From a virus, in IMG/VR virus record IMGVR_UViG_3300025141_000498, positions 1 through 30,409 of that record: a stretch of DNA of 30,409 nt. One strand, written 5' to 3'. The position numbers were made by a program, and so were the translations under genes. The notes under the pieces are model-generated. The model was not told the DNA's origin. It did not search any database and saw only the letters and a program-made list of their open reading frames with translations. Below are positions 2,168 to 30,409 of this stretch, piece after piece (the first letter of the stretch is position 1; each line of letters begins with the position of its first letter).

Positions 2168-2743
2168 ATGAAAAAATTATTATATCTCTTATTGGTATTC
2201 CTGTGTTGTTCTTGTGAAAAGAACTACCCACTAATAGATTGTAATGTAGAGTATCCTACTACCCAAGATACTACATCTATTATAGAAATTGAATTTTTAG
2301 ATGGTGATTGGTTATTAATGAGTGGTAAAATGGTTATGGAAAATTTAGACTTGAATACTTCTTCAACTCAATTTCACTTTAGTAGTGGTCCTACCAGTAG
2401 TTTAAGATATGGGTCTCCTATGTATGATTTTGAATCTATTATTAGGTATGAAACAATTTGGACTTTTGATTTTCCTAGTAGTATTCCGGGTGTTGGAGAG
2501 TTTACTTTAGGCTACGACACTTTGGTTCCTTATGGTTTAAATGTAAGTGAGTCCTATTTAACGGTTATTGAACCTATTGTCGGCCCACAATTACTTCTAG
2601 GTGGTTCGTCTAGACCTATAACCATAAAACACATTGATTATGATAATAAAATAATTAACCTGATTGTTCAGGAAGCTTATCAACAAATTAACGATTATGA
2701 TTATCGTTACTATTCTATATTAACTTTTAAAAAAATAAATTAA
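2168..2743 (+). CDS. Predicted lipoprotein, envelope-directed
   Basis: The 191-residue product starts with a classical lipoprotein signal: MKK, a hydrophobic stretch LLYLLLVFLC, then the lipobox CCSC with the acylated Cys at residue 16. The mature part (CEKNYPLIDC and onward) is rich in Ser, Thr, Tyr and beta-type sequence, with a FLDGDWLLMSGKM segment that faintly recalls lipocalin-like Bacteroidota lipoproteins. No enzyme motif was recognised. It should be anchored in a host envelope membrane. It is first in a three-gene plus-strand cassette set between minus-strand structural genes, with its own host-type promoter. Phage lipoproteins of this kind often block superinfection (T5 Llp, TP-J34 Ltp), and that role is plausible here but unproven. 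Confidence 0.8.
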   Translation: MKKLLYLLLVFLCCSCEKNYPLIDCNVEYPTTQDTTSIIEIEFLDGDWLLMSGKMVMENLDLNTSSTQFHFSSGPTSSLRYGSPMYDFESIIRYETIWTFDFPSSIPGVGEFTLGYDTLVPYGLNVSESYLTVIEPIVGPQLLLGGSSRPITIKHIDYDNKIINLIVQEAYQQINDYDYRYYSILTFKKIN

Positions 2744-2744
2744 C

Positions 2745-3170
2745 ATGAAAAATTTTATCTTGTTATTATTATTAATACCTTTATTTGTTAGTTCTCAGAC
2801 TTTCACACTTAAAGACACAACTTATAACATGACACTCCATATAGATAATTTCACTGACGAATTTAAAGTGGCTTTGATGAAAGATATGGTGGTTAACAGT
2901 ATCTCCAACTCTTCTAATACTGTGACTGTAGATACCTTAGAAAATACCGTAGAAGTAAATAGAATGTCCCCTGAGGGTTCAATGACTCTGGGTTTAGAAA
3001 TAACAACTATAAAAGAAGATAGTTTATATGGTACCACTTATAATTTATATGATTATTATAACGGGAATTATGGTTTCTTATTTATAAAAAAAGATGGTAC
3101 TATAATATTTAGCCTACAAGATATGACGTTTATCGACGAATACTACGGTTTTGTTGGTTTTATTAATTAA
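2745..3170 (+). CDS. Predicted secreted small protein
   Basis: This 141-residue protein begins one base after the lipoprotein stop codon, so the two are almost certainly co-transcribed. The N-terminus, MKN followed by FILLLLLIPLFVSSQ, is a typical Sec signal peptide with probable cleavage near Ser-Ser-Gln at 17-18, a context common in Bacteroidota. The mature part is about 120 residues and beta-rich, with an acidic and aromatic C-terminal half (YNLYDYYNGNYGFLF and then IDEYYGFVGFIN). No Cys and no known catalytic motif were seen. The distribution of Tyr, Phe and Gly suggests a small beta-sheet domain. It probably works with the neighbouring lipoprotein in the periplasm or at the surface. The family is not recognised. 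Confidence 0.75.
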   Translation: MKNFILLLLLIPLFVSSQTFTLKDTTYNMTLHIDNFTDEFKVALMKDMVVNSISNSSNTVTVDTLENTVEVNRMSPEGSMTLGLEITTIKEDSLYGTTYNLYDYYNGNYGFLFIKKDGTIIFSLQDMTFIDEYYGFVGFIN

Positions 3171-4267: not shown

Positions 4268-7200
4268 CTATATGTCTTCAAAAGAAGCTCCAGTAGGTGT
4301 TATTAAGAATTCAACAAAGATGTATTCTAATGCTCTGGTAGGTTTAATGTAGATTTTACCATTCATTTCATTTCTGTCTATTTCTTCTGGGTCATTAGAA
4401 AGTACCACTCTAAAGTCTGTTAGCCCTCTATCTCTTCTAATAGAATCTAATATAGGGTTTACCAGGTCTAAGAATTGTTGTCTTACTATTTCATCATTTT
4501 GTTCGAAAATTAATCTAACCGCGACAGCAGAAATTAACTTTCTAGTTTGCAATAATAATCTTCTAACATTAATTCTATCCAAAGCTGATTCTCTAACTTG
4601 TAATGTTTTATTACCCCAAATAATCGGTCCTGTATCACTGAATGTAGCGATTGGATTTAATCTTCCAACATATAGTGTGTCTCTTTCATCTAAAGTAAGT
4701 TTCTTTCTTGCTTTTGTAGCATCGACTAGTCCTCTTGTGTAACCAGCGGAAGCAAACCAAGGGAAGGAGATGTTATCAGTTAACGCGATATTTCTCATTA
4801 CTTCTGATGTTGGTGGGATGTATATTTGTTTATTATTAGCCGTATCTCTCACCTGTATCCAAGGATAGTAGGTAGCTGTATAATTAGAATCTATTAAAGA
4901 GTCTTCTACATTATCCACAGCTTCTTCTGGTGAAATTTGATTAGCTGTGTCTGTAGTATCCGCTACGAACATATTATAATCTGGTGTGGTTGTAATATAT
5001 AGTGAATCTGCTCTATCAGTTTCAACCATATCTATTGCTTCATTTACTAATCCCAAATTATCTACATAATCTATACCTGGAGTTGCAAATACATTAATAT
5101 CTATAGCTTCTGGGTTAGAGAATTCGTTTATACCTCTTAAATAAGCGAAATAATCAGTATTTGCTTCATTAGTATTTAATTTTTTGAATGTTCCACTTCC
5201 TGTAGCATTTGCGAATTCTGTGCTAACACATGCTCCGTTTAGGAACCCAGTTAATCCCATTCTATAATCATCAGTATTACTTCTAGTTTTTCTGTAAATG
5301 TCCCAACCGTCAAATCCTCCATGTGGTGCCAATGTAAATTTACGTGCTCTTAATTTCTTATATGGGTCAGTACTTAGTGTTGGTTCTGTTCTAAATGAGG
5401 TTACACCACATTCAAATACTGATTTACCAGCAAGTGTTGTTCCTGACCAACTTACATAAGTACCAGAACCACCAACTACTACTGTTGCTCCTGAATCCAT
5501 GTGGAATCCTTGTGTAATTACACTCCATTCTCCACCTGCAGTTGCTGTACATACGTTTGATGGTACTACGTACCCTTTATGGTCAAAGAATGATGGGTCG
5601 TATCCTGCACCCATAGTATCAGAAATACCTAGATAAACTTTACTTATTTTATCACCACCACTAACAGTAGCGTTATTAACAGTACCCGTACCAAATGGTG
5701 GGTCATACACAACTTCACCCGGTGTATAATATTTAGTTTTATATACTAAACGTGGATTTATAGGACAATTTCCGTAACTTCTAAATCTATATCCTTCAAA
5801 CCCACAAGGTAATGAAGTAGCAAATGTCCCGTCAAGAACACCTTCACCTAAAAATAACATAGTATATTTAGATTTTAATTCAAATTCACCTGTTGATGTA
5901 CCTATTTTTCTACCTATAAAAGACACTTTAGTTGGGTCTAGACTACATCTAGTGTATTTTTCTAGAACTACTGGGTTTGCGTCAGTATCATAAAAATCTC
6001 TCACTATCACATCAAATTCAGCTCTTTCAAAAGATAAGTTTATTAATGATACTTTATATTCTCTATTAGCTGTAGTTCCATCAGAAATGGAGACAAACTT
6101 AAATAGTCTAAATACGTCGGAACCTTGTAGTTCGGATACCACATATGGTGTTTCCGGTGTTAACCACTCATGCATATTCCAAGCGATTGTACCTGTGTTT
6201 GTTGTTGCTCTCGCTGATGGCAAATAAGTTAAACAACATTGTAGTCCTCTAACTTTACCTTTTCTCCAACTATCTTTTAATAAAGTAGGGTAAGATTCTT
6301 CAACAAATAACGGAACATCTATTGCCTTCTTATCAAAAGGTGTTACACCGAATACACTAGACGCGTAATCTGTAGATGTTACACTCATTGATGTTTTGAA
6401 GGTGTAGTCTTTTCCTTCTGCCGTTCTCGCGTTAATTCCAAATGACGCGAAAGGGTCTTCTAATACTTTATAGTATGTTCCTCCTGAACAATCAAAAGTA
6501 ACAGTATTTGCTGTTATTTCGTAAACTGGTCCTCCACTCGCTTTAGTACTTAATCCTCTAGACCTAAATGTTAATACTACCATACCATCATAATCTGTAT
6601 ATGGTTGTACACCACCCCAATCTACATAATCTACAGCACAATATCCTGAGAATACAGTAAATGCTGTACCACCAATAGTTGTACTACCAGTAGATATCAT
6701 CTGACATGCCCCTGTATTTGCTGTAGTCGCGTATAACTGATATGACACTCCACTATATGTGGTTCCACTACAACATGTAGTGTCACCAGTGTAGTCGAAT
6801 AACCCGTAATACCATGCATCATTTTCATAATCAAGAGGTCCTTCTAATGCTGTATTACTATCTACTCCTAATCTATTATAAATCGTGGTTGAACTTGTCG
6901 CGGATAGTGAATTGGTAGTTGTTGCTGTAGCTAAATTAGTATAGTCAGTAGGAATAACCCCGTATTGATAGATTGCTCCCCCGTAAAATGGCGTAGTAGC
7001 GGAAACTAAGTAATCTGGGTTTGACCCTGAACAACTTGAGTATGGAGCAGATGCTGCGTCACCAACATCAGCGTCACCTAAATCACTCGCTATACCATAA
7101 ATTGCTTTAGCCCATGCAAGTAGGTCGGCTTTTAATGTTGTTGAAGTCCCGTTAGTTAAATAAATTGTTTCTTCCCAGTCTTGTAAAGGATTTGTTGCGT

Positions 7201-7732
7201 TACCATTTCCGAAATGAGCTTTTATAGAACTTGGTAAAGTACTAATAAAATCAGTACTTAAAGCTGCATTTGAGAACATCTCACTACCAATTGTTACATT
7301 TGACCCAGTTAAAGGAATGTAAAATGGTAAAGACGTAGCACCCGATGTATACGCGGTAGTAGCCGCACTAAACGAAGATGGGTCAAGACTACCTATAGTT
7401 TGTACAGACCATGACGGTCCTGCATCATAACCACTTAATCCTAATACTCTTGTAACAAACAATTGGTTAGATTGACTAAGATATGATTTTGCGATATATC
7501 CTAACTCATATTTTGGTATTTGTGAGTCTACATATTTTATTGGTGATGTTCCACCGAATCTAGTTGTGAAATCATCATATGATTGTATAAATATTGGTTC
7601 GAAAGCTGGACCTTTTAAGGTCTCTCCAACTAAACCTAGTGTGGTAACACCAACGCTCTGTGCTACAAATGTTAAATCTTTCTCGGATGTGTATACACCT
7701 GGAGAAACAAATACTTTATTACCGTCTGCCAT
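4268..7732 (-). CDS. gp18: Tail sheath protein, T4 gp18 family, greatly enlarged
   Basis: The N-terminus (VFVSPGVYTSEKD, VGVTTLGLVGETLKGPAFEP, then FGG) is the standard opening of contractile tail sheath proteins. The last 138 residues, from about 1017 (RDTLYVGRLNPIATF, WGNKTLQ, then NVRRLLLQTRKLIS), match the conserved sheath C-terminal domain that interlocks neighbouring subunits. The protein contracts around the tail tube during DNA injection. At 1154 residues it is about 500 longer than T4 gp18 (659). The extra sequence lies in the central part, roughly 110-900, is rich in Thr, Ser, Gly and Tyr, and has many Cys (for example CCSGTTYSG and QCCLTYLP). These are probably surface-exposed domains on the outside of the tail. 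A TATTTATA element lies 36 nt upstream. A full-length open frame argues against a sequencing artefact. Confidence 0.95.
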   Translation of the reverse strand: MADGNKVFVSPGVYTSEKDLTFVAQSVGVTTLGLVGETLKGPAFEPIFIQSYDDFTTRFGGTSPIKYVDSQIPKYELGYIAKSYLSQSNQLFVTRVLGLSGYDAGPSWSVQTIGSLDPSSFSAATTAYTSGATSLPFYIPLTGSNVTIGSEMFSNAALSTDFISTLPSSIKAHFGNGNATNPLQDWEETIYLTNGTSTTLKADLLAWAKAIYGIASDLGDADVGDAASAPYSSCSGSNPDYLVSATTPFYGGAIYQYGVIPTDYTNLATATTTNSLSATSSTTIYNRLGVDSNTALEGPLDYENDAWYYGLFDYTGDTTCCSGTTYSGVSYQLYATTANTGACQMISTGSTTIGGTAFTVFSGYCAVDYVDWGGVQPYTDYDGMVVLTFRSRGLSTKASGGPVYEITANTVTFDCSGGTYYKVLEDPFASFGINARTAEGKDYTFKTSMSVTSTDYASSVFGVTPFDKKAIDVPLFVEESYPTLLKDSWRKGKVRGLQCCLTYLPSARATTNTGTIAWNMHEWLTPETPYVVSELQGSDVFRLFKFVSISDGTTANREYKVSLINLSFERAEFDVIVRDFYDTDANPVVLEKYTRCSLDPTKVSFIGRKIGTSTGEFELKSKYTMLFLGEGVLDGTFATSLPCGFEGYRFRSYGNCPINPRLVYKTKYYTPGEVVYDPPFGTGTVNNATVSGGDKISKVYLGISDTMGAGYDPSFFDHKGYVVPSNVCTATAGGEWSVITQGFHMDSGATVVVGGSGTYVSWSGTTLAGKSVFECGVTSFRTEPTLSTDPYKKLRARKFTLAPHGGFDGWDIYRKTRSNTDDYRMGLTGFLNGACVSTEFANATGSGTFKKLNTNEANTDYFAYLRGINEFSNPEAIDINVFATPGIDYVDNLGLVNEAIDMVETDRADSLYITTTPDYNMFVADTTDTANQISPEEAVDNVEDSLIDSNYTATYYPWIQVRDTANNKQIYIPPTSEVMRNIALTDNISFPWFASAGYTRGLVDATKARKKLTLDERDTLYVGRLNPIATFSDTGPIIWGNKTLQVRESALDRINVRRLLLQTRKLISAVAVRLIFEQNDEIVRQQFLDLVNPILDSIRRDRGLTDFRVVLSNDPEEIDRNEMNGKIYIKPTRALEYIFVEFLITPTGASFEDI

Positions 7733-18202: not shown

Positions 18203-20212
18203 CTACTCCGCATATGGTAAGTCACAGTCTACACATCCACTATCACAATTTTTACATTCTTCACAATCAATTAAAGAATATCTACTCTTATTAATTAAAA
18301 AATTATGATATATTTCATCTGGTGTTAACGGTTTTATATAGTACATCATTTGAGAAATTCCACCTATAAATGTACCGCCAAACCAATTTCTTATAAGTGT
18401 TTGGTCTGAGTTAGGTACGAAAGATGTCCAATTAGTAGTATCACATGACATAGAGAACATAGCTGAGGATAAACCTAACGCTCCACCACCCCAAGACATA
18501 TTGTAAGCTACACCCATTTGTGTTTGTTTATTGGTGTTTAGTTGTCTAGGTATGATTTCCTCATAATTTTCAACTGTGTGGACTCTTCTACCATTAACAT
18601 AAAATGTTAAGGTACCTAATCTATATTCTCTTTCCGCAAACCATTTCTGTACATATGCTCCATGACAATTAAAATCAAAATATGCGTCTTCAATAAATCT
18701 AGGGTACTGGTCTTTACAAGGATTAATTTCTGGTGTTACACCTACTGGATTACATCCAAATGGGGCAATGCCCCCATCTTTATGGGTTCCGTATCTTTGA
18801 AATTTGTCTGTCCTTACTCTTACCAAATCATTTATTCCACCATTATTAAAAATTTCACAATCTTCTAATTCTAAATTTCTTTTAAATACTATATCTACTT
18901 GTATCCATGTATCCACACAATTACCACTTTGGGTTATGAATGCACATATAGGGTCTGAGTAACTTTCTTCTATTTCGGAGTCACAATAAAAAGTCTTTCC
19001 GGTATTACACTCCTCACTGGTTCCTGTAGTAATACAATATCCACTATATCTTAATGTCCTATATCCAATTTTCATGTCATCAGTTAATCTAAATCCAAGT
19101 GCGTTGCTATAAACATCATATCTAGCGTTAGGAGACTGGTTTTGATATCGTACTTTTACTGGGTCTTCTTCAGTCATACAACACCCACTAATACCTGATA
19201 ATGTAGTACATGCAGATAATTCTGCGAAGTTATCAATATTGCTTCCTGTAAAACCCCATTTATCTTCTGCTCTTATTCCTTTATAGAAAAAGAATCCTCC
19301 TGTGTTAGATGGGGTAGATGGTGGATTATAATTTAGTAGTGTTTGTGGTGGGTTTGGTCCAAAAGCTGTCATTATCGGTGGTATACATAATGTTGCTGCA
19401 CTAGAAGTTACACTTATAGTTACCCCACTTTCCCAATTAATAAATCTATTCCATCCACTAGTATTATAACAATTTCCATATAGTCCTTGTTGTCCTGTAT
19501 AGGGAGCTGGGCCATCTGGGCCTATTATTGTATTACCCACACTATTAATTTTTAAATAAGTCTCAAAAGACCATCCTCTATTTGGCCGTGTTGGTAGGAC
19601 TTCATATGGATAACCATATAATTTATAAAATCCTTGATAAAAACCACCTCTTAGGTCTTGGTAGTACCCCGACCCATCAAATGCACTAAGTATAGAAGTA
19701 TCTATTGTTGAGTTTAATGTTCCTGCTGGTGTTAGTGCCTTAACTTGTATCATCTTAAATCTTTTGTCGTACGCAAAACTATTAAATTGTTGGGGGGCTG
19801 GTAGTGTATCATATAAATTAATACAGGAAGTACTACCGGGGGTAAGTAGTCCATTGTCTGTGCCAGTCCATATAATATCGCAAAGACTAATTGGTGTCAC
19901 ACCAGTATAGGGGCACTCACAAGTAGATTTGGCTTGAGGCCAGTATAATTTACTTAGTACAACAAAGGGTGTGGTACTAGCAGTTTGAATCCCACAATTA
20001 GTAACTGGTTGTGTTCCAGAATTAGGACTAGCTAAATCAATCCATACAGGTAAACTACTTCCAGAGGTAGCATCAATAATTGAAGTAGAGTACACTACTT
20101 GTTGATTAAAATCTTTTTCATCAGAAGCTAAAAATATATCATAGTAAGAACTATAATTTATTTTAGCGTCTAATCTATTGAAATAATAGTTATTTAAATT
20201 TTGTGTTCCCAT
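18203..20212 (-). CDS. Cys-rich late protein with LamG/lectin-like features
   Basis: This 669-residue protein looks like a virion appendage. A segment from about 211, RPNRGWSFETYLKI, and a C-terminal part with LGTLTFYVNGRRVHTVENYE (532-551) and GGISQMMYYIKPLTPDEIYH (about 617-636) match the strand and ending patterns of LamG or concanavalin-like jelly-roll domains. Such domains often bind sugars. It contains many Cys, including CECPYTG, SGCCMTEED and a terminal cluster at Cys650, 653, 656, 660 and 663, before the end DLPYAE. Such spacing might bind metal or form disulfides. A host-receptor or surface-sugar contact is inferred. A late-type element ends four bases before the ATG, so the mRNA may be leaderless. 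Confidence 0.62.
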   Translation of the reverse strand: MGTQNLNNYYFNRLDAKINYSSYYDIFLASDEKDFNQQVVYSTSIIDATSGSSLPVWIDLASPNSGTQPVTNCGIQTASTTPFVVLSKLYWPQAKSTCECPYTGVTPISLCDIIWTGTDNGLLTPGSTSCINLYDTLPAPQQFNSFAYDKRFKMIQVKALTPAGTLNSTIDTSILSAFDGSGYYQDLRGGFYQGFYKLYGYPYEVLPTRPNRGWSFETYLKINSVGNTIIGPDGPAPYTGQQGLYGNCYNTSGWNRFINWESGVTISVTSSAATLCIPPIMTAFGPNPPQTLLNYNPPSTPSNTGGFFFYKGIRAEDKWGFTGSNIDNFAELSACTTLSGISGCCMTEEDPVKVRYQNQSPNARYDVYSNALGFRLTDDMKIGYRTLRYSGYCITTGTSEECNTGKTFYCDSEIEESYSDPICAFITQSGNCVDTWIQVDIVFKRNLELEDCEIFNNGGINDLVRVRTDKFQRYGTHKDGGIAPFGCNPVGVTPEINPCKDQYPRFIEDAYFDFNCHGAYVQKWFAEREYRLGTLTFYVNGRRVHTVENYEEIIPRQLNTNKQTQMGVAYNMSWGGGALGLSSAMFSMSCDTTNWTSFVPNSDQTLIRNWFGGTFIGGISQMMYYIKPLTPDEIYHNFLINKSRYSLIDCEECKNCDSGCVDCDLPYAE

Positions 20213-20216
20213 TAAT

Positions 20217-20224
20217 TATAAATA
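20217..20224 (-). promoter_or_regulatory. Late-type TATTTATA element at 20217
   Basis: The minus strand reads GTATTTATAATTA and then ATG at 20212. It is one of a divergent pair with the plus-strand copy at 20243-20250. Confidence 0.55.
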
Positions 20225-20242
20225 CTATTTGATTGGTTTAGA

Positions 20243-20250
20243 TATTTATA
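20243..20250 (+). promoter_or_regulatory. Late-type TATTTATA element, gene 20264 operon
   Basis: GATATTTATAAATAAAAG lies 13 nt before the ATG at 20264. It is the probable start of transcription for the five-gene run ending at 22970. Confidence 0.58.
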
Positions 20251-20263
20251 AATAAAAGTATAT

Positions 20264-23018: not shown

Positions 23019-24257
23019 ATGAAAAGTAAAAAATATAAAATCCTCGTCCTCCCTAGTGATAGAACTGGGGTATCAAAATTTCGTTCTGTAGACCCACATA
23101 CTTATCTACAAAAAATGTACCCTGATGAATTCTGGGTAGATATTAAATATGACCCACCATATACTGATGATGAATGGTGGAAGCAATATGATTTAATCCA
23201 TTACCATAGAAGTATTGGTCCTGATTATGACGCTTCAAAAGCCGTCGCAAAAAAACTTAAGCGGTGGGGCATACCACAAATTATGGACTTAGATGATTAC
23301 TGGTTACCCACTACTGACCATCCCGCTCATATGATGATAAAAAACGCTAAAGTAGATATAAAAATCAAAGATATGTTAAGGATAAGTCAATATGTGACTA
23401 CAACAACCACAGAATTTGCTTCTGAAATATCTAAATTAAACAAAAACGTATACATTTACCCTAATGCTATTAACCACGAAGAAAAACAATATATACCAAA
23501 CCCAATCTCTTCTAATAAGGTAAGGGTTGGGTGGTTAGGGGGTTCTTCCCACATTAAAGATATGGAAATTTTAAATGGGGTGGTTCATAGATTACATAAC
23601 GATAGAAAAGGTAAATTTCAAACTGTTTTATGTGGGTATGATTTACGTGGTAGTATGACTATTTTTGATGAGAAGACTGGAAAACAAACTCAAAGACCTA
23701 TAACCCCTAAAGAATCGGTATGGTATAAATATGAACAAATAATGACTGACAATTATAGGATAATTAGTGATGATTCTTATAAAGATGAATTGTTATCTTT
23801 TCAAAAAAAGAGTATTGCGGGAGATACTGATTCTGACTATAGGAGGGTATGGACTAAACCTATCACTACCTACGCTTCAAATTATAACCATTTTGATATT
23901 TCTTTGGCTCCGTTAAAAGAACACGTTTTTAATAGGGTGAAATCTCAATTAAAGGTTATAGAAGCTGGGTTTCATAAAAAGGCTTTAATTGTTCAAGACT
24001 ATGGTCCATATACAATAGATTGTATAAATGCGTTTAATAAGGGTGGTGGATTTAATAATAAGGGTAATGCGTTAATGGTACCTAAAACTAAAAATCATAA
24101 GTTATGGTTTCAATATATAAAAAAGTGTATTGATAACCCTAACTTTGTACAGGATTTAGGTGAGAGGTTACATGAAACGGTTTTCCCACAATATACCTTA
24201 GAGACGGTAACTAGGAAAAGAGCTGAATTTTATAGAGAAATAATAAGAAAATCGTAA
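23019..24257 (+). CDS. Glycosyltransferase, GT-B fold (GT4-like)
   Basis: The 412-residue protein has a GT-B layout. The N-terminal lobe has YKILVLPSDRTGVSKFRSVD and YDLIHYHRSIG, a GT4 pattern in which the acceptor lobe opens with a Gly-x-x-x-x-Arg segment. IMDLDDYWLP and VTTTTTEFASEISK follow. The C-terminal nucleotide-sugar lobe starts at VRVGWLGGSSHIKDMEIL, with the Gly-Gly-Ser loop, and continues to FDISLAPLKEHVFNRVKSQL and IEAGFHKKALIV. The second lobe ends with the VPKTKNHKLW region and a helix. It probably transfers a sugar from a nucleotide-activated donor. The acceptor (phage protein, DNA or host surface) cannot be told. It opens the glycosyltransferase block and has its own host-type promoter. 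Confidence 0.82.
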   Translation: MKSKKYKILVLPSDRTGVSKFRSVDPHTYLQKMYPDEFWVDIKYDPPYTDDEWWKQYDLIHYHRSIGPDYDASKAVAKKLKRWGIPQIMDLDDYWLPTTDHPAHMMIKNAKVDIKIKDMLRISQYVTTTTTEFASEISKLNKNVYIYPNAINHEEKQYIPNPISSNKVRVGWLGGSSHIKDMEILNGVVHRLHNDRKGKFQTVLCGYDLRGSMTIFDEKTGKQTQRPITPKESVWYKYEQIMTDNYRIISDDSYKDELLSFQKKSIAGDTDSDYRRVWTKPITTYASNYNHFDISLAPLKEHVFNRVKSQLKVIEAGFHKKALIVQDYGPYTIDCINAFNKGGGFNNKGNALMVPKTKNHKLWFQYIKKCIDNPNFVQDLGERLHETVFPQYTLETVTRKRAEFYREIIRKS

Positions 24258-24259
24258 AA

Positions 24260-24514
24260 ATGTCAGATAGTAAGCTACCAACTTGGTTCGATGGAGAACG
24301 ATACGAAAAAGGAGATGAAGTTACAAACCGATTCTCTGGAGAGAAATATACCCTAACCTCAGAAGAATTATCGATGTATGACTTTATAATGGGAGCGCAG
24401 ATAGTTTTGGAGATGGGAATAATGAATAACCCTAAAATGGTGGAAGACCTGAGAAAAGGTTTAGATTGGTTTAGGAAAAATAATAATGAGGCTTATATGG
24501 TCTTACTAGATTAA
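24260..24514 (+). CDS. Conserved phage protein of unknown function
   Basis: This 84-residue protein begins 2 nt after the glycosyltransferase. It has PTWFDGERYEKGDEVTN, FSGEKYTLTSEELSMYDFI and then a helical end (MGAQIVLEMG, KGLDWFRKNNNEAYMVLLD). From memory, the pattern (a Trp-Phe-Asp-Gly opening, then FSGE and LSMYDFIMGAQ) resembles small hypothetical proteins of large marine phages. No function is known to me. It is probably co-transcribed with the glycosyltransferase genes. Confidence 0.7.
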   Translation: MSDSKLPTWFDGERYEKGDEVTNRFSGEKYTLTSEELSMYDFIMGAQIVLEMGIMNNPKMVEDLRKGLDWFRKNNNEAYMVLLD

Positions 24515-24532
24515 AAATTAAAAATTAAAAAA

Positions 24533-24712
24533 ATGGCAGTAGAAATTAATATAATTGACAATGGACCTATATTGGTCAAAGGAAACACTACCGTAACAAA
24601 AGGTGGTGAAAAAGTAACAGTAAGTGAAAATTATGCGTTGTGTAGATGTGGGCAATCCAAAAATCAACCAATGTGTGATGGAGCACATAAATCATGTAAT
24701 TTTAAAGGATAA
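24533..24712 (+). CDS. CDGSH-type [2Fe-2S] iron-sulfur protein
   Basis: A 59-residue frame runs from ATG 24533 to TAA 24710-24712. The C-terminal half contains the complete CDGSH signature: Cys37-x-Cys39-x2-Ser42-x3-Pro46-x-Cys48-Asp-Gly-Ala-His52. Cys37, Cys39, Cys48 and His52 would hold the [2Fe-2S] cluster, as in mitoNEET-like proteins. The N-terminal half, IDNGPILVKGNTTVTKGGEK, forms the usual preceding beta region. This is a minimal single-domain form, soluble since no membrane segment is present. Such proteins act in redox or iron-sulfur handling. In a phage it might feed a redox-dependent enzyme of the nucleotide pathway, which is inference. It lies between two small conserved genes upstream of dUTPase. 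Confidence 0.9.
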   Translation: MAVEINIIDNGPILVKGNTTVTKGGEKVTVSENYALCRCGQSKNQPMCDGAHKSCNFKG

Positions 24713-24717
24713 AAAAT

Positions 24718-24948
24718 ATGTACTATCAAGCAATTGTAGCGTTTGAGACGGGAGTGTTGGACGCTAATGGAAACCCTAAAGTTAAAAAGTTTAAATACAT
24801 TGTAGAATCAGAGTCAGTGTTTGAAGCTAATAAGAGACTATCTCATTATTTATCGGAGGACGCACGAGATTCAGAAGTTATATCTGTTGTAAAAGCCCCT
24901 TATGAGGACATTTTACACCCAGAATTAACCCCAAAGTATTATGAGTAA
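24718..24948 (+). CDS. DUF4494-like small protein
   Basis: This 76-residue protein has MYYQAIVAFETGVLDANGNP, VKKFKYIVESESVFEANKRL and SEVISVVKAPYEDIL. The order (a substrate-like strand, a Val-Glu-x-x-Ser turn, a helix, then a strand ending in Lys-Ala-x-Tyr) resembles the DUF4494 family common in Bacteroidota genomes. Function is unknown. It starts 5 nt after the CDGSH gene and overlaps the dUTPase gene by 8 nt, so it is in the same transcript. If the family call holds, it supports a Bacteroidota host. Confidence 0.55.
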   Translation: MYYQAIVAFETGVLDANGNPKVKKFKYIVESESVFEANKRLSHYLSEDARDSEVISVVKAPYEDILHPELTPKYYE

Positions 24949-25555
24949 AAAAAGTGTAGCTTTTAGAAGAATAAAAGATTTAAATAAACCTAATAAATCT
25001 AATAATGAGGATAAATTAGATGGTGAGATTTTACATCATCTAGGTCTAGACAAGTCTTTAATGGAGGATTTGGAAAGGCAAAGCTATGAGGCTGCAAAAG
25101 AAGAAGTTAAAATACCTGTTAGTTATCAAAATAACTCCAGTAATCCTGATTTAAGTTATAAATATATAGATGACAGTGGGATGGATATACGAGCTAACAT
25201 TTCTTCACCAATAACCTTGTCTCCCCTTAAACGTACTTTAATCCCTACAGGTATTCACTTTGAACTTCCTGAGAGTTTTGAAGTTCAGATTAGACCTAGA
25301 AGTGGTTTAGCTATACGAAATGGCATAACAGTATTGAATACCCCTGGCACTGTGGACCGTGGATATACTGGGGAAATAAAAATAATATTAATAAATCTAG
25401 GTGAAGAAGATTTCATAATTAACCATGGAGATAGAATTGCTCAAGCTGTGGTTTCTCCTGTTATAACAGGAAGGTGGGCAAAATTAAAAAAAGTAGATAA
25501 TTTAATTACTACTGAAAGAAGTTCTGGTGGATTTGGTTCCACCGGTATAAAATAA
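24941..25555 (+). CDS. dut: dUTPase (deoxyuridine triphosphatase)
   Basis: All five conserved motifs of the trimeric dUTPase family are present. I is DSGMDIRA at 78-85. II is RPRSGLA at 118-124. III is NTPGTVDRGYTGEIK at 133-147, containing the catalytic Asp139 and Tyr142. IV is GDRIAQAVV at 163-171. V is RSSGGFGSTG at 193-202. The enzyme hydrolyses dUTP to dUMP and diphosphate, keeping uracil out of phage DNA and supplying dUMP for thymidylate. The protein is 204 residues, compared with about 150 for bacterial Dut, because of an N-terminal extension of about 70 charged residues (SKKSVAFRRIKDLNKPNKSN and helices to about 55) of unknown purpose. It overlaps the upstream gene by 8 nt. Confidence 0.96.
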   Translation: MSKKSVAFRRIKDLNKPNKSNNEDKLDGEILHHLGLDKSLMEDLERQSYEAAKEEVKIPVSYQNNSSNPDLSYKYIDDSGMDIRANISSPITLSPLKRTLIPTGIHFELPESFEVQIRPRSGLAIRNGITVLNTPGTVDRGYTGEIKIILINLGEEDFIINHGDRIAQAVVSPVITGRWAKLKKVDNLITTERSSGGFGSTGIK

Positions 25556-25563
25556 AATAAATT

Positions 25564-27204
25564 ATGTCATTATCAGTAATATTTAGTACTAAAAAAATAG
25601 CCCCAGAATTTATTAATACAATTAAAAAAAGTTCTGGGATACACAACATAGAGGTTATACCTTACGAAAACCCAGGAAAATATTCTTTAACCGAACTATA
25701 CAATAAGGGATTAAAAGAATCAAAAAATAATATTGTGGTGTTCTGTCATGACGATATAAAATTTGACACTAAAAACTGGGGAAGAAAAATTCTAAATCAT
25801 TTTAAGAGGGATAAAGAAATTGGTATACTTGGTGTGGCTGGAAGTAGGTATATGCCGTCTAGTGGTAAGTGGTGGGAGGACTTTAATAAAATGCATGGTG
25901 CTGTTTATCACGAACATGAAGGTAAGCGGTGGTTATCCCGTTACTCCAATGATATTGGTAATAGAATAGATGACGTGGTTTTAGTTGACGGACTATTTTT
26001 TAGTGTTAATAAAACAAATATAAAACTTAATTTTAATGAAGATGTCAAGGGTTTTCATTTTTATGATGTCGATTTTTCTTTTTCTAATTATTTAGCTGGA
26101 ACTAAAGTGGGCGTATGTACGGATATAAAGATAACTCACTTGTCTATCGGAATGACTAATTCTGAGTGGGAAGAAAACAGAGTTATTTTTGCTGAAAAAT
26201 ATAAGGACTCATTACCGGTAAAAATAAATCGAGTTTTAAGAAAAAAAGAAAAACTTAATATCTTAATAGGGTGTTTAAATTTTAATGATTATACTGGTTC
26301 TGAATTACATGTATATGAATTAGCTAAAGGATTGCGACAACTTGGTCATAATGTAAGTATTTGTTCTAATGTAGGTGGTCCAATGGAACGTAAAGCGGCT
26401 TTATTAGGGATAAATACATATCAATTAAATGAACCCCCAGGATTTAAACTTGGCGATGGTAAATCTACTATAGTCACACCAAATGGTAACCAAATTGCGA
26501 AAGAAGGACAATTATATAAGATTCAGGAAATAAAATTTGATGTTATGCATTTACATCATAAACCTATTACTGAACACCTACTTAAGATGTATCCTAGTAT
26601 ACCATCTATTTGTACTATACATTCAGAAGTCATAGAATTAGAACACCCGGTACTAGACGAAAAAATATCTAAATATATATGTATTAGGCCGGAAATCCAG
26701 GAATATATAACTGAAGTTTTCGAAATTAATAAAGATAGAACGACGGTTATTTATAATCCTTTCGACACTCAAAGATTTAAAATGTTTCCTTTGCCTAATA
26801 AAAAAAATAAAGTCGTATTGTTTGTTGGTACTATAGATTATATTAGACAATATACAATAGAAGACTTGATAATCGAAACTAAGAAATCCGGTAAAGAGTT
26901 ATGGATTTTGGGTAAAAAAAGAGCTGATTATCTAGATGACTTAAATGAACCTCACGTAACTTATATAGAACCTACTTGGCAGGTAGAGAGTTATATTAAA
27001 CAGTGTGACGAAACCGCTGGTATTCTATTAGGTAGAACTACTATAGAGGGATGGTTATGTGGTAGGCCTGGTTGGATTTATGATGTTGATGACGCTGGAA
27101 ACATTTCTTCTAAGAGTCTAAATCCTGTGCCGTCAGATGTAGAAAAATTTAAATCGGAAAATGTTATAAATAAAATAATCGATGAATATATAAACATAAT
27201 ATAA
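25564..27204 (+). CDS. Two-domain glycosyltransferase, GT-A (GT2-like) plus GT-B (GT4-like)
   Basis: The 546-residue protein joins two folds. The N-terminal part, about 1-215, is GT2-like. It has IEVIPYENPGKYSLTELYNK and a metal-binding CHDDI at 61-65 (Asp63-Asp64). VDGLFFSVNK follows at 141-150, and then GFHFYDVDFSF at 163-173 with the catalytic-base acid. From about 230 begins a GT-B domain, LNILIGCLNFNDYTGSELHV. It continues with DVMHLHHKPITEH, STICTIH-like segments, YNPFDTQRF, then the donor loop VLFVGTIDYIRQY and ILLGRTTIEGWLCGRPGWI. Two catalytic units in one chain suggest two sequential sugar additions to the same chain. Its stop overlaps the next start by one base. Confidence 0.85.
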   Translation: MSLSVIFSTKKIAPEFINTIKKSSGIHNIEVIPYENPGKYSLTELYNKGLKESKNNIVVFCHDDIKFDTKNWGRKILNHFKRDKEIGILGVAGSRYMPSSGKWWEDFNKMHGAVYHEHEGKRWLSRYSNDIGNRIDDVVLVDGLFFSVNKTNIKLNFNEDVKGFHFYDVDFSFSNYLAGTKVGVCTDIKITHLSIGMTNSEWEENRVIFAEKYKDSLPVKINRVLRKKEKLNILIGCLNFNDYTGSELHVYELAKGLRQLGHNVSICSNVGGPMERKAALLGINTYQLNEPPGFKLGDGKSTIVTPNGNQIAKEGQLYKIQEIKFDVMHLHHKPITEHLLKMYPSIPSICTIHSEVIELEHPVLDEKISKYICIRPEIQEYITEVFEINKDRTTVIYNPFDTQRFKMFPLPNKKNKVVLFVGTIDYIRQYTIEDLIIETKKSGKELWILGKKRADYLDDLNEPHVTYIEPTWQVESYIKQCDETAGILLGRTTIEGWLCGRPGWIYDVDDAGNISSKSLNPVPSDVEKFKSENVINKIIDEYINII

Positions 27205-27863
27205 TGAATTTAGTGATTAAATTCCCTACTAGAGTAAGGGCTAGAAAATTTTTAAAAGTGTTAAACACATATGTACGATTTTTAGATGATAAGACTACTC
27301 GTATAATAGTTTCTTGTGATGAGGATGATGTTTCTATGAAAGAAGACTTCGTTACACAGGTAATTAATCAGTATGATAATGTTGAGGTTCAGTTTAATAA
27401 TAATTCTAATAAAATAGAAGCTATTAATCATAATATGGAAAACTTAGACTTTGATATTGTTTTATTAGCTTCTGATGATATGGTGCCTCGTATTAAGGGT
27501 TTCGATACCACCATAAAAGAAAAAATGTTATCTCACTATCCAGACACTGACGGTGTATTGTGGTTTAACGATGGGTATAAAGGTAATCAACTTAATACAT
27601 TATGTATTTTAGGTAAAAAATATTATGACCGCTTTGGTTATATCTACAATCCAGAGTATAAATCTGTATGGTGTGATAATGAATTTATGGATGTATCAAA
27701 AATACTAGATAAAGTGACTTATTTTGACGATGTAATTATTAGGCATGAACACCCCGACTGGGGATTTGGTTCTAATGATTCTATACATATGAGTAATATT
27801 AAACACGAAAGTGGGGATAGAATTACTTATGAAAGAAGGAAAAAAGAAAATTTTGGGCTATGA
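27204..27863 (+). CDS. GT-A fold glycosyltransferase-like protein
   Basis: This 219-residue protein has a GT-A-like layout without a clear family. The N-terminal Rossmann part is LVIKFPTRVRARKFLKVL, then TRIIVSCDEDD and QYDNVEVQF. The candidate metal-binding pair, in LLASDDMVP, is Asp91-Asp92. It goes on with VLWFNDGYKGNQLNTLCILG and YGDDV-like acidic segments, ending DWGFGSNDSIHM. The size is small for a full GT and resembles a bare catalytic domain. Its start overlaps the preceding stop (TAATG) and its stop overlaps the next start (ATGA), so it is translationally coupled to both neighbours. Confidence 0.68.
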   Translation: MNLVIKFPTRVRARKFLKVLNTYVRFLDDKTTRIIVSCDEDDVSMKEDFVTQVINQYDNVEVQFNNNSNKIEAINHNMENLDFDIVLLASDDMVPRIKGFDTTIKEKMLSHYPDTDGVLWFNDGYKGNQLNTLCILGKKYYDRFGYIYNPEYKSVWCDNEFMDVSKILDKVTYFDDVIIRHEHPDWGFGSNDSIHMSNIKHESGDRITYERRKKENFGL

Positions 27864-28717
27864 AGAATTTGTGTACAGTATCCGATATAAATTATTTATT
27901 GCAGGGATTAACACTTTATGAGTCCTTAAAAAACACCACTAGTGATTTTATTCTTCATTACCTCTGTATAGATGACAAGTCTTACGACATACTTAAACCA
28001 CTAGAAAATAACATGTTAAAAGTATATAGTGTTAATACTTTTGTTTCTAATGACCCCTTGTTGTTAAATTTAAAAAACACAGAATATAAATATTTCTGTT
28101 GGTCTCTAGCTTCATACTTTTCAAATAAATTGTTAAAAAAAGTAGATTTTATAACTTATATAGATAGTGACATTTATTTTCATGAGAATATTGATGTCGT
28201 ATTGGAAGAAATAGGTTCTAGGGATGTGGGTATCTTTAGGCATCGTCAATTTCCATTAAATACATATAGACCGGAAGGGTTATACAACGTTGGTGTTGTG
28301 TTTTTTAGAAACTCTGAGTTAGGTGTGTCTGTTTCTGACTGGTGGACTGACGCGGTATTAAATAAAAAATACAGAGAATACGCAACATGTGGAGACCAAA
28401 AATATTTAGATAATTTTCCTAATTTATGTCCACCAGAATCTATATACTTAGATGAAAATATTGGTCATGGTGCGCCATGGTTATGGCAACTTTATGAGTT
28501 TATAGATACTCATAAGATTAAGTGGGAAAATAAAGAGCAGGACTTAATTTTTACGCACTTTTCACAATTTCAATTTAATGGTGATAGTTATATACCCTCA
28601 CTAATGCATCACATATACACCCCTTTAGACGAATATAAAAATAATATAAATCTTAAGGTAATTTATGACGAGTACTTTACAAATCTTAAACTTACCCAAT
28701 CTTTATATAAATTATAA
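27860..28717 (+). CDS. Glycosyltransferase, GT8-like
   Basis: The 285-residue protein has the features of the GT8 or nucleotide-diphospho-sugar transferase group. The N-terminus is MKNLCTVSDINYLLQGLTLY. The key metal motif is TYIDSDIYFHE with DSD at 102-104. Later elements are YNVGVVFFRNSELGVSVSDWW, CGDQKYLDNF (the family's GDQ loop) and HGAPWLWQLYEF. This group are retaining enzymes that build glycans on acceptors such as LPS or glycoprotein. The gene overlaps the one before by ATGA and is 12 nt before the next, in an unbroken plus-strand block. The donor sugar cannot be told from sequence. Confidence 0.83.
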   Translation: MKNLCTVSDINYLLQGLTLYESLKNTTSDFILHYLCIDDKSYDILKPLENNMLKVYSVNTFVSNDPLLLNLKNTEYKYFCWSLASYFSNKLLKKVDFITYIDSDIYFHENIDVVLEEIGSRDVGIFRHRQFPLNTYRPEGLYNVGVVFFRNSELGVSVSDWWTDAVLNKKYREYATCGDQKYLDNFPNLCPPESIYLDENIGHGAPWLWQLYEFIDTHKIKWENKEQDLIFTHFSQFQFNGDSYIPSLMHHIYTPLDEYKNNINLKVIYDEYFTNLKLTQSLYKL

Positions 28718-28729
28718 AATAAAAAATTT

Positions 28730-29605
28730 ATGAAAATAGCTTTTGGAATGATTGTATTTGAGGGTGACTATGTCCTAAAACAGTGTTTAGAACAGGTATA
28801 TCCTTTCGCGTCTCAAATATTAATTGCTGAAGGTCCTGTATCTTATTGGCAAAGACAGGGAAGAACCACATCCTTAGACGACACTAATAAAATTTTAGAT
28901 GAGTTTCCGGACCCAGAAAATAAAATTAAAATAGTACATGGCCAATTTAATGAAAAAGATGACCAATGTAGAGCATATATGCAACATATAAATGATGATA
29001 TAGATTATATTTGGAATTTAGATTCTGATGAGATTTATACTACTGGTGATTTAGAAAAAATTATATCTTTTTTAGAATCTGAAAAACCTACTAGTGTTGG
29101 TGTACGAAGTTGTTCTTTTTATGGTGGTTTTGATAATTACCTAACTGGTTTTGAATTAAATAGAGATAATTTTTTACGTATTTTTAGATACACCAAAGGG
29201 TCTACTTGGTTAACTCATAGACCACCTACCATCCAATACCCTATAAATTCTAATATAACTAAAAAACATATAGATAGTGACACTTTATTTAATTCGTTGG
29301 GTGTACAAATGTATCATTACTCGTACACTTTTCCAGACCAGGTTTATAAAAAAGTAAATTACTATAAGGATAGTGTTAGTAGACAAAATTGTATTGATGA
29401 TTATTTTAATAGGGTTTATTTACCTTGGGTTGATGGTCAAAACAAATTAATAGAAAAAGAATTTCTGGGAGTTCATGAATTTAAACCACATGTGAGGGGA
29501 GAATGTTATACTGAAAAATTTATAGGTGAACACCCGGAATCTATACTTAGAGATTTAGAAGAACTAAAAATTCAATTTAGAAAACAACTCGAACACTATC
29601 GTTGA
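28730..29605 (+). CDS. Glycosyltransferase, GT2/GT17-like
   Basis: This 291-residue protein has a single GT-A domain. It opens with MKIAFGMIVFEGDYVLKQCL and VYPFASQILIAEGPVSYW. The metal site is IWNLDSDEIYT with DSDE at 98-101. Further features are a helix with RSCSFYGGFDNYLT, then FLRIFRYTKGSTWLTHRPPT (acceptor region) and MYHYSYTFPDQVYKKVNYY. The CAEG-like opening and DSDE core are seen in inverting enzymes that act on polysaccharide or glycoprotein acceptors. The exact family is unsure. Its stop codon contains the TTG-derived bases of the promoter candidate for the next gene. Confidence 0.8.
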   Translation: MKIAFGMIVFEGDYVLKQCLEQVYPFASQILIAEGPVSYWQRQGRTTSLDDTNKILDEFPDPENKIKIVHGQFNEKDDQCRAYMQHINDDIDYIWNLDSDEIYTTGDLEKIISFLESEKPTSVGVRSCSFYGGFDNYLTGFELNRDNFLRIFRYTKGSTWLTHRPPTIQYPINSNITKKHIDSDTLFNSLGVQMYHYSYTFPDQVYKKVNYYKDSVSRQNCIDDYFNRVYLPWVDGQNKLIEKEFLGVHEFKPHVRGECYTEKFIGEHPESILRDLEELKIQFRKQLEHYR

Positions 29606-29632
29606 TTAATATAATTTTTATTCATATATTTT
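29602..29632 (+). promoter_or_regulatory. Host-type promoter candidate, GT-D gene (TTG-N20-TATATTTT)
   Basis: TTG at 29602-29604 overlaps the upstream stop codon, then exactly 20 nt, then TATATTTT at 29625-29632, the same box as before the helicase. 18 nt separate it from the ATG at 29651. Confidence 0.52.
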
Positions 29633-29650
29633 CAATATAAATTAATAAAT

Positions 29651-30409
29651 ATGAATAATGTACTCTCTGGTGATGAAGGTAATATTTTACTTCACGAAAA
29701 CCTTAAAAATAATAAGCCTTTTTCTTTATCTAGAATTGGTATCGGTGAAATTAGACTAGTATATAATAAACTTAATAATGTTTTATCTGATTATGATTAC
29801 TATAGTATCGCAGCGGGTGGTGTTAGAGAGGATTCACGTGAATTTTTCTTTGACGAATATATTAAGGGTATAAGTGAAGCTGATATAAATGCTTACTGGG
29901 TGGGAATAGAATCCCCTCATAGGGAAGCTCAAGATAGTATTTTAAACTCACTTTCACCTCAGTCTATTAAGATTATGCATAGAACGGTAGAACCGTTTTA
30001 CTTTGGGAACCCGTGGTCAAAATCATTAGTTGGTAAAAAAGTATTAATTATTAGTCCTTTTGCCGAATCCATTACGGAACAACACCCTAAGTTATCAAAA
30101 ATATGGGGTGATAAAAAATTAATGCCTGAATTTGAATTGTTGACACTTAAATCAAAATTTTTATTTAGTCCTGATTCTCCTTCATGGAAGGATACATTAA
30201 ATAATATGAAAGCAGAAATATCTAATATGGATTTTGATATAGCTTTGTTAGGTTGTAGTCTTTATGGGTTACCGTTGGTGGCGCATATTAAAGAGTTAAA
30301 TAAAAGTGCAATTTATATAGGTGGTTCACTACAACTTTTATTTGGTATTAAAGGAAAGAGGTGGGATATTCGTGAAGATATAAATAAACTATATAATACG
30401 CATTGGGTT
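29651..30409 (+). CDS. GT-D fold glycosyltransferase-like protein (3' end cut by window)
   Basis: Open from ATG 29651 for 253 codons to the window edge, so the C-terminus is missing. The N-terminal segment KPFSLSRIGIGEIRLVY matches the GT-D (DUF1792, SP_1767-type) opening, where a Gly-x-Gly-Glu motif binds the nucleotide-sugar and metal. The rest has WVGIESPHREAQ, PFYFGNPWSKSLVGKKVLII and SPFAESI. It then has DFDIALLGCSLYGLPLVAHI and IYIGGSLQLLFGIKGKRW, the conserved C-terminal pattern of this group in bacterial glycan clusters. The family completes glycan chains on serine-rich glycoproteins in some Gram-positives. It brings the glycosyltransferase genes in this block to six. Confidence 0.75.
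   Translation, partial: MNNVLSGDEGNILLHENLKNNKPFSLSRIGIGEIRLVYNKLNNVLSDYDYYSIAAGGVREDSREFFFDEYIKGISEADINAYWVGIESPHREAQDSILNSLSPQSIKIMHRTVEPFYFGNPWSKSLVGKKVLIISPFAESITEQHPKLSKIWGDKKLMPEFELLTLKSKFLFSPDSPSWKDTLNNMKAEISNMDFDIALLGCSLYGLPLVAHIKELNKSAIYIGGSLQLLFGIKGKRWDIREDINKLYNTHWV

Follow-up and report, generated by a model that had tools for sequence, protein, structure and literature searches.

The left end of a putative hypervariable glycan-biosynthesis island in uncultured T4-like phages

The so-called lipopolysaccharide (LPS) biosynthesis clusters of cyanophages (e.g., P-SSM2, S-SCSM1 and ACG-2014f) are polymorphic, multi-family glycosyltransferase (GT) clusters on one strand of large T4-like phage genomes, in which genes for GDP-mannose dehydratase (GMD), fucose synthase, aminotransferase and methyltransferase stand alongside the GTs. 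Moraphages, a lineage described in 2025, are aquatic jumbo phages of 200-307 kb that are marked by PolB and the major capsid protein (MCP) and have predicted Bacteroidota hosts (PMC12619734). The fibril glycosylation clusters of Megavirinae comprise 6-33 genes, are clade-specific, and combine nucleotide-sugar genes with GTs (PMC10117803). Glycosylation of virions also has a precedent in mycobacteriophages, according to the work cited in the moraphage paper (PMC12619734). Here we describe a GT locus at positions 23,019 to 30,409 of a virus fragment of 30,409 bases, the entire IMG/VR record IMGVR_UViG_3300025141_000498 (hereafter, the window). As a whole the locus is best explained, with about even confidence, as part of a hypervariable island for glycan biosynthesis, of which the window holds the left end, and which would act on a virion protein and alter the coat by gene replacement.

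Like the cyanophage clusters, the locus has contiguous GTs of several families on one strand of a large T4-like phage, is polymorphic, and in relatives includes one to four epimerase/dehydratase paralogues. It differs from them in having a fixed site between the genes for dUTPase and PhoH, with conserved GTs close to either border and a swapped domain in the border gene; these features and the extent of the turnover are new here, whereas the kind of cluster is already known. As in Megavirinae, nucleotide-sugar genes and GTs are encoded by the virus, clustered, and clade-specific, but those are unrelated eukaryotic giant viruses in which the virion acceptor and the sugars have been measured, and the island described here is known from its genes alone. 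Bacterial O-antigen and capsule loci likewise have conserved borders, a variable centre, low guanine-plus-cytosine (GC) content, and GTs together with nucleotide-sugar synthesis.

Relatives were obtained from IMG/VR scans with the 546- and 412-amino-acid (aa) proteins as queries; these are 16 uncultured contigs of up to 232 kb, and completeness has been established for none of their genomes. The original prediction, made from the window, described six GT genes of at least four fold types in one block. The six open reading frames (ORFs) are present on one strand; the first five are intact, and the sixth is truncated where the contig ends. The GT genes and the left border of the island are as follows.

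23019-24257, plus strand: 412-aa GT-B glycosyltransferase (w23; phrog_7162, E = 3e-38), a conserved core gene outside the variable island
24941-25555, plus strand: dUTPase (PF00692, E = 3e-25), the conserved left border of the island
25564-26238, plus strand: N-terminal GT-A module of the 546-aa fusion (PF13712, E = 8e-34), the last conserved segment before the variable region
26239-27204, plus strand: C-terminal GT-B module of the fusion (PF13439, E = 9e-15), swappable, the first island segment
27204-27863, plus strand: 219-aa GT-A-type GT, island gene (phrog_14945, E = 7e-16)
27860-28717, plus strand: 285-aa GT8-like GT, island gene with a weak family call (PF01501, E = 0.057; DSD motif)
28730-29605, plus strand: 291-aa GT2-type GT, island gene (PF00535, E = 2e-8)
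29651-30409, plus strand: GT-D-like gene of at least 253 aa, cut by the contig end (PF22882, E = 3e-8)

The block is not uninterrupted, since four non-GT ORFs, including that for dUTPase, occupy positions 24260-25555 between the first GT and the rest. The short gaps and overlaps attributed to it hold from 27204 onward (-4 to 45 nucleotides), the first GT being set apart. Three folds rather than four are counted (GT-A, GT-B and GT-D-like), because the GT8-like and GT2-like proteins are both GT-A.

The real unit begins at about 25564, with the fusion gene that follows dUTPase and inside which the hypervariable part sets in; the 412-aa gene is a conserved neighbour. In relatives covering the site, genes w18-w22, the 412-aa GT and dUTPase are found in the same order. 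The 11 relatives that include both borders reveal where the block ends: their islands span 11.8-22.3 kb and 13-25 genes, nearly all on one strand, and run to a conserved PhoH gene. This right border is followed by NT5C, c16 (GT-B-like, weak), c17 (a GT2 protein) and c18 (late-sigma-like); c18 (L028:7512-8213) adjoins the border and has a weak match to a late sigma factor (phrog_234, E = 8e-4). The window ends inside the island, after five island genes including the fusion. Before PhoH is reached there are 19 further genes in G001 and 12 in G005 that lie beyond the window's set, and comparison with relatives indicates that the island of the window extends far beyond the end of the contig.

Two relatives share on average 85% of their flanking genes and 22% of their island genes, and pairs with 65-70% core identity mostly have 6-25% of their island genes in common. 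The 270 island genes fall into 55 clusters and 57 singletons, and the GC content of the island is lower than that of the left flank in all 17 of 17 records. The sequences show an island that always lies between dUTPase and PhoH, flanked on either side by conserved GTs, and whose set of GT, nucleotide-sugar and sugar-modifying genes differs among relatives.

The left border of the variable region lies within the fusion gene. In the relatives compared, the fusion is conserved to about residue 225 (the copy in G015 is cut at residue 162). Beyond this residue similarity drops abruptly in eight relatives, which have one of two other C-terminal modules, giving three alternative modules across the lineage. 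The conserved GTs (the 412-aa protein, the N-terminal GT-A of the fusion, c16 and c17) would start or cap a shared core glycan, and the variable GTs would lengthen it with sugars from the dehydratases, epimerases and aminotransferases of the island. That the conserved GTs and the variable island instead do separate jobs, with different virion or host targets and no single glycan, seems unlikely. Such a division would fit the contrast between island genes, which turn over, and conserved GTs, which every record covering the site contains, as well as the four moraphage core orthogroups already annotated as GTs (PMC12619734). A common product is argued for by the close flanking of the island by conserved GTs on both sides, and by the joining of one of them to a variable GT module in a single protein.

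The 412-aa GT is found in 16 of 16 records covering the site, at 51-87% identity to the window copy. It has no Pfam match, but its predicted model (pLDDT, the predicted local distance difference test, 80) was matched by Foldseek to solved GT4-type GT-B enzymes, the best being GlgM (E = 8e-13), with MshA and BshA also found; the predicted GT-B fold is thus borne out by structural match. A genome scan with this protein gave no bacterial relative. Four window GTs were searched against a phage collection, where the fusion, 291-aa and GT-D-like proteins had no match and the 219-aa GT matched only annotated GTs of Streptomyces phages (about 26% identity). Among the relatives, the 219-aa GT is found only in G001, G002, G005 and L045, and the 291-aa GT is 83-90% identical in the first three of these and 80% in L045. 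Relatives of the GT-D-like gene are located at L003:5632-6456 and L007:14760-15572.

Assignment of the 285-aa protein to GT8 is plausible without being firm. On its own it scores below the PF01501 cut-off (13.4 against 24.3 bits), but PF01501 is matched by 4 of the 5 members of its family (best E = 8e-4), and D102-S-D104, a DxD metal-binding motif, is invariant across the five sequences. An AlphaFold model of this protein built with the five sequences was dropped for its pLDDT of 42. No GT came up when solved structures were searched by profile with A2 and A3.

The sugar-nucleotide synthesis genes whose presence the original prediction left to be checked are found in the islands of the relatives. 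Among 146 non-redundant island proteins, Pfam matches (with overlapping counts) comprised 18 Epimerase, 16 GDP_Man_Dehyd, 13 RmlD, 12 GT2 and 8 DegT aminotransferase, together with 5 GT11, 5 FkbM, and 3 each of FdtA, GT25, GT10 and cupin. Phosphoheptose isomerase and UDP-glucose dehydrogenase are added by PHROGs, and matches to NCBIfam models comprise, among others, those for dTDP-glucose 4,6-dehydratase, GDP-fucose synthase and GMD. GMD is supported at E = 1e-120; methyltransferase, KdsA-like and cytidylyltransferase-like genes are also present. Relatives with island genes in common with the window additionally encode methyltransferases, a second GT8-like GT, DegT, GMD (E = 3e-118), a KdsA-like synthase and PhyH. 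Fifteen relatives have island genes past the fusion, and 13 of them encode an NAD-dependent epimerase/dehydratase, in 1-4 copies, the two exceptions being truncated contigs; the window ends before any such gene. The proposed capacity for an ordered multi-sugar glycan is strengthened by these nucleotide-sugar genes, in its multi-sugar part.

Two further observations concern island content. The IMG/VR contigs L047 and L019 overlap with 100% protein identity across w29-w30-DegT, and L047 continues past the overlap with an epimerase and more sugar genes. The island of G005 includes an unusual fusion of an HMGL-like aldolase domain with a CMP-sugar-type cytidylyltransferase (L028:2384-3991).

Island genes may have moved between lineages. 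L045 is a distant member, with dUTPase and PhoH about 50% identical to those of the window, while its homologues of w28, w29 and w30 are 62, 56 and 80% identical, a pattern of gene identities that suggests cassette exchange. Core genes place the window nearer to G006-G015 (PolB 83-88%) than to G005 (73%), while its island genes match G005 and G001. In a formal tree test, the log-likelihood falls by 28 units when the window is kept in one group with G002 and G005; since the p value of the approximately unbiased (AU) test, 0.06-0.10, misses significance, movement of the island between lineages is suggestive but unproven.

We suggest that the acceptor would be a virion protein (capsid, sheath or fibre) that is glycosylated in the cytoplasm before lysis. 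This is the most likely acceptor in view of the apparent solubility of the island enzymes and the failure to find an export system. None of the 270 island proteins has three or more hydrophobic segments in a hydropathy scan, so none looks polytopic. Profile searches for absent genes covered ten relatives' contigs, and with working controls they detected neither the PF02397 initiating transferase (WecA-type families lay outside the search) nor the PF01943 Wzx flippase, a lack that sets the islands apart from bacterial O-antigen and capsule loci. The island is thus most likely a lineage-specific glycan factory whose predicted products decorate virion proteins in the cytoplasm. Differences in gene content probably give each phage its own sugar coating, and replacement of island genes would produce a new coat, probably with altered surface properties of the virion (recognition, stability). 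Somewhat more tentatively, the locus could be a phage 'serotype' locus, a recombining cassette at a fixed site with a domain-swap border gene that would give each lineage of Bacteroidota jumbo phages a chemically different virion glycan.

Virion proteins, modified DNA bases and the host surface had all been put forward as acceptors. Of these, DNA hypermodification, in which the GTs would add sugars to modified phage bases against restriction as in T4-like phages, is very improbable. It would fit the several conserved GTs in a T4-like phage, and GTs of other phages are described as glycosylating DNA (Pyle 2024, as cited in PMC12619734). However, with working controls, the ten relatives yielded no PF00145 (C5-methylase) gene and no gene of PF00303 (thymidylate-synthase/hydroxymethylase family), the family of the dCMP hydroxymethylase that marks T4-type DNA glucosylation, although these contigs may be incomplete; modified DNA is therefore an unlikely acceptor. 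A TET/JBP search was also without match, but its positive control was equally silent. Furthermore, deoxysugar and aminosugar pathways and the lineage-specific turnover of genes are a poor fit to base modification.

Several points weigh against a virion-protein acceptor. The acceptor, the glycan and the enzyme activities are predicted from genes alone. Soluble cytoplasmic GTs also make bacterial O-antigen units on lipid carriers, so that the initiating and flipping enzymes of the host could be borrowed. Genes that were not found could sit elsewhere in the genomes of the relatives, none of which is known to be complete. The late-promoter-like motif TATAAATA, enriched upstream of genes overall in the lineage, stands upstream of 8 of the 270 island genes; this is background, without enrichment, and late expression of the island is therefore unsupported. 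Finally, similar cyanophage clusters have been published as host-surface modification (PMC7824862).

Remodelling of the host surface is thus a serious rival, although we regard it as only a possible explanation. Here the O-antigen, capsule or exopolysaccharide of the infected cell would be altered by way of a borrowed host lipid carrier and host export, so that superinfection would be blocked, or progeny kept from adsorbing to debris. Lipid-linked assembly of this sort could be carried out by cytoplasmic GTs, and the reading has been published for cyanophage clusters of the same composition that are polymorphic between related viruses (PMC7824862, PMC9602691). The lack of a flippase, a PF02397 transferase or a polytopic island protein makes autonomous export to the host surface less likely, and a lytic phage would have to outpace an abundant pre-existing surface glycan.

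Two large proteins encoded in the window are of interest as regards glycosylation of the virion. The sheath protein (1154 aa, 4268-7732, minus strand), a possible glycan acceptor, matches the main sheath profile best at residues 859-1151, so that most of it is extra sequence. The w17 protein (669 aa, 18203-20212, minus strand), a candidate virion appendage, ranges from 560 to 1049 aa in relatives; it has no PHROG match, and its C-terminus is LamG-like by eye only. Elsewhere, two small adjoining ORFs with signal-peptide-like N-termini (2168-3170, plus strand) lie on the strand opposite to the neighbouring tail genes, and the first of them has a lipoprotein-like CC motif (LLLVFLCCSCEK).

The remaining features of the left flank are as follows.

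20213-20263, no strand assigned: divergent promoter-like element between w17 and w18, about 38 nucleotides (AATAAATACTATTTGATTGGTTTAGATATTTAT...), conserved in most relatives
24260-24514, plus strand: 84-aa ORF, not a GT
24534-24713, plus strand: 59-aa ORF, not a GT, with a CDGSH-type iron-sulphur motif (RCGQSKNQPMCDGAH) read from the sequence
24718-24948, plus strand: DUF4494-like 76-aa ORF (Pfam E = 2e-4, below the cut-off), kept in most relatives

The element at 20213-20263 has the late-promoter-like motif at 20217 and 20247, and is kept across most relatives despite a w18 protein identity of only about 50%. It is likely a bidirectional promoter, and the series of genes that continues on one strand into the island probably starts from it. 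The CDGSH-type ORF, which has the 412-aa GT on one side and the DUF4494-like gene on the other, is unusual for a phage.

The lineage consists of uncultured T4-like, jumbo-type phages whose hosts are probably Bacteroidota. Structural genes downstream in the relatives include a gp23-type MCP, portal and terminase. By capsid and sheath, the closest named phages are Flavobacterium phage immuto (37% MCP identity) and Microcystis phage Mel-JY01 (44% MCP, 33% sheath), and in the 45 kb of each that were read, no block of annotated GTs lies close to PhoH. Among named phages there was also no match to the 546-aa fusion protein, nor to the window in a DNA-level search. The GMD of the relatives has 75% identity to a Saprospiraceae gene, which has no phage-like neighbours on its contig, and 51% to the GMD of cyanophages. 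It was therefore probably acquired separately from cyanophages, with Bacteroidota as donor or host, a pointer from one gene with which the absence of Shine-Dalgarno-like leaders in the window is consistent. Common descent with the cyanophage clusters is not borne out by these identities, nor by the four searched window GTs, none of which has a cyanophage match. Compared by published description, moraphages resemble this lineage in being large aquatic phages with predicted Bacteroidota hosts and GTs among their core orthogroups, although the text of that paper makes no mention of epimerases, polysaccharide genes or a hypervariable region (PMC12619734). Judged by description only, the four moraphage GT orthogroups may be the counterparts of the 412-aa GT, the N-terminal part of the fusion, c16 and c17, and a specific function is thereby suggested for core GTs already reported in that group.

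The fixed borders mean that such islands are easily catalogued from metagenomes, as a source of matched sets of nucleotide-sugar genes and GTs. If the virion is the acceptor, phage recognition, adsorption and grazing in water could be affected, and changing the coat by gene swapping at a fixed site would be a strategy common to phages, giant viruses and bacterial O-serotypes. The 'serotype' island, if real, would be for viruses of prokaryotes what O-serotype loci are for bacteria and fibril glycosylation clusters for giant viruses.

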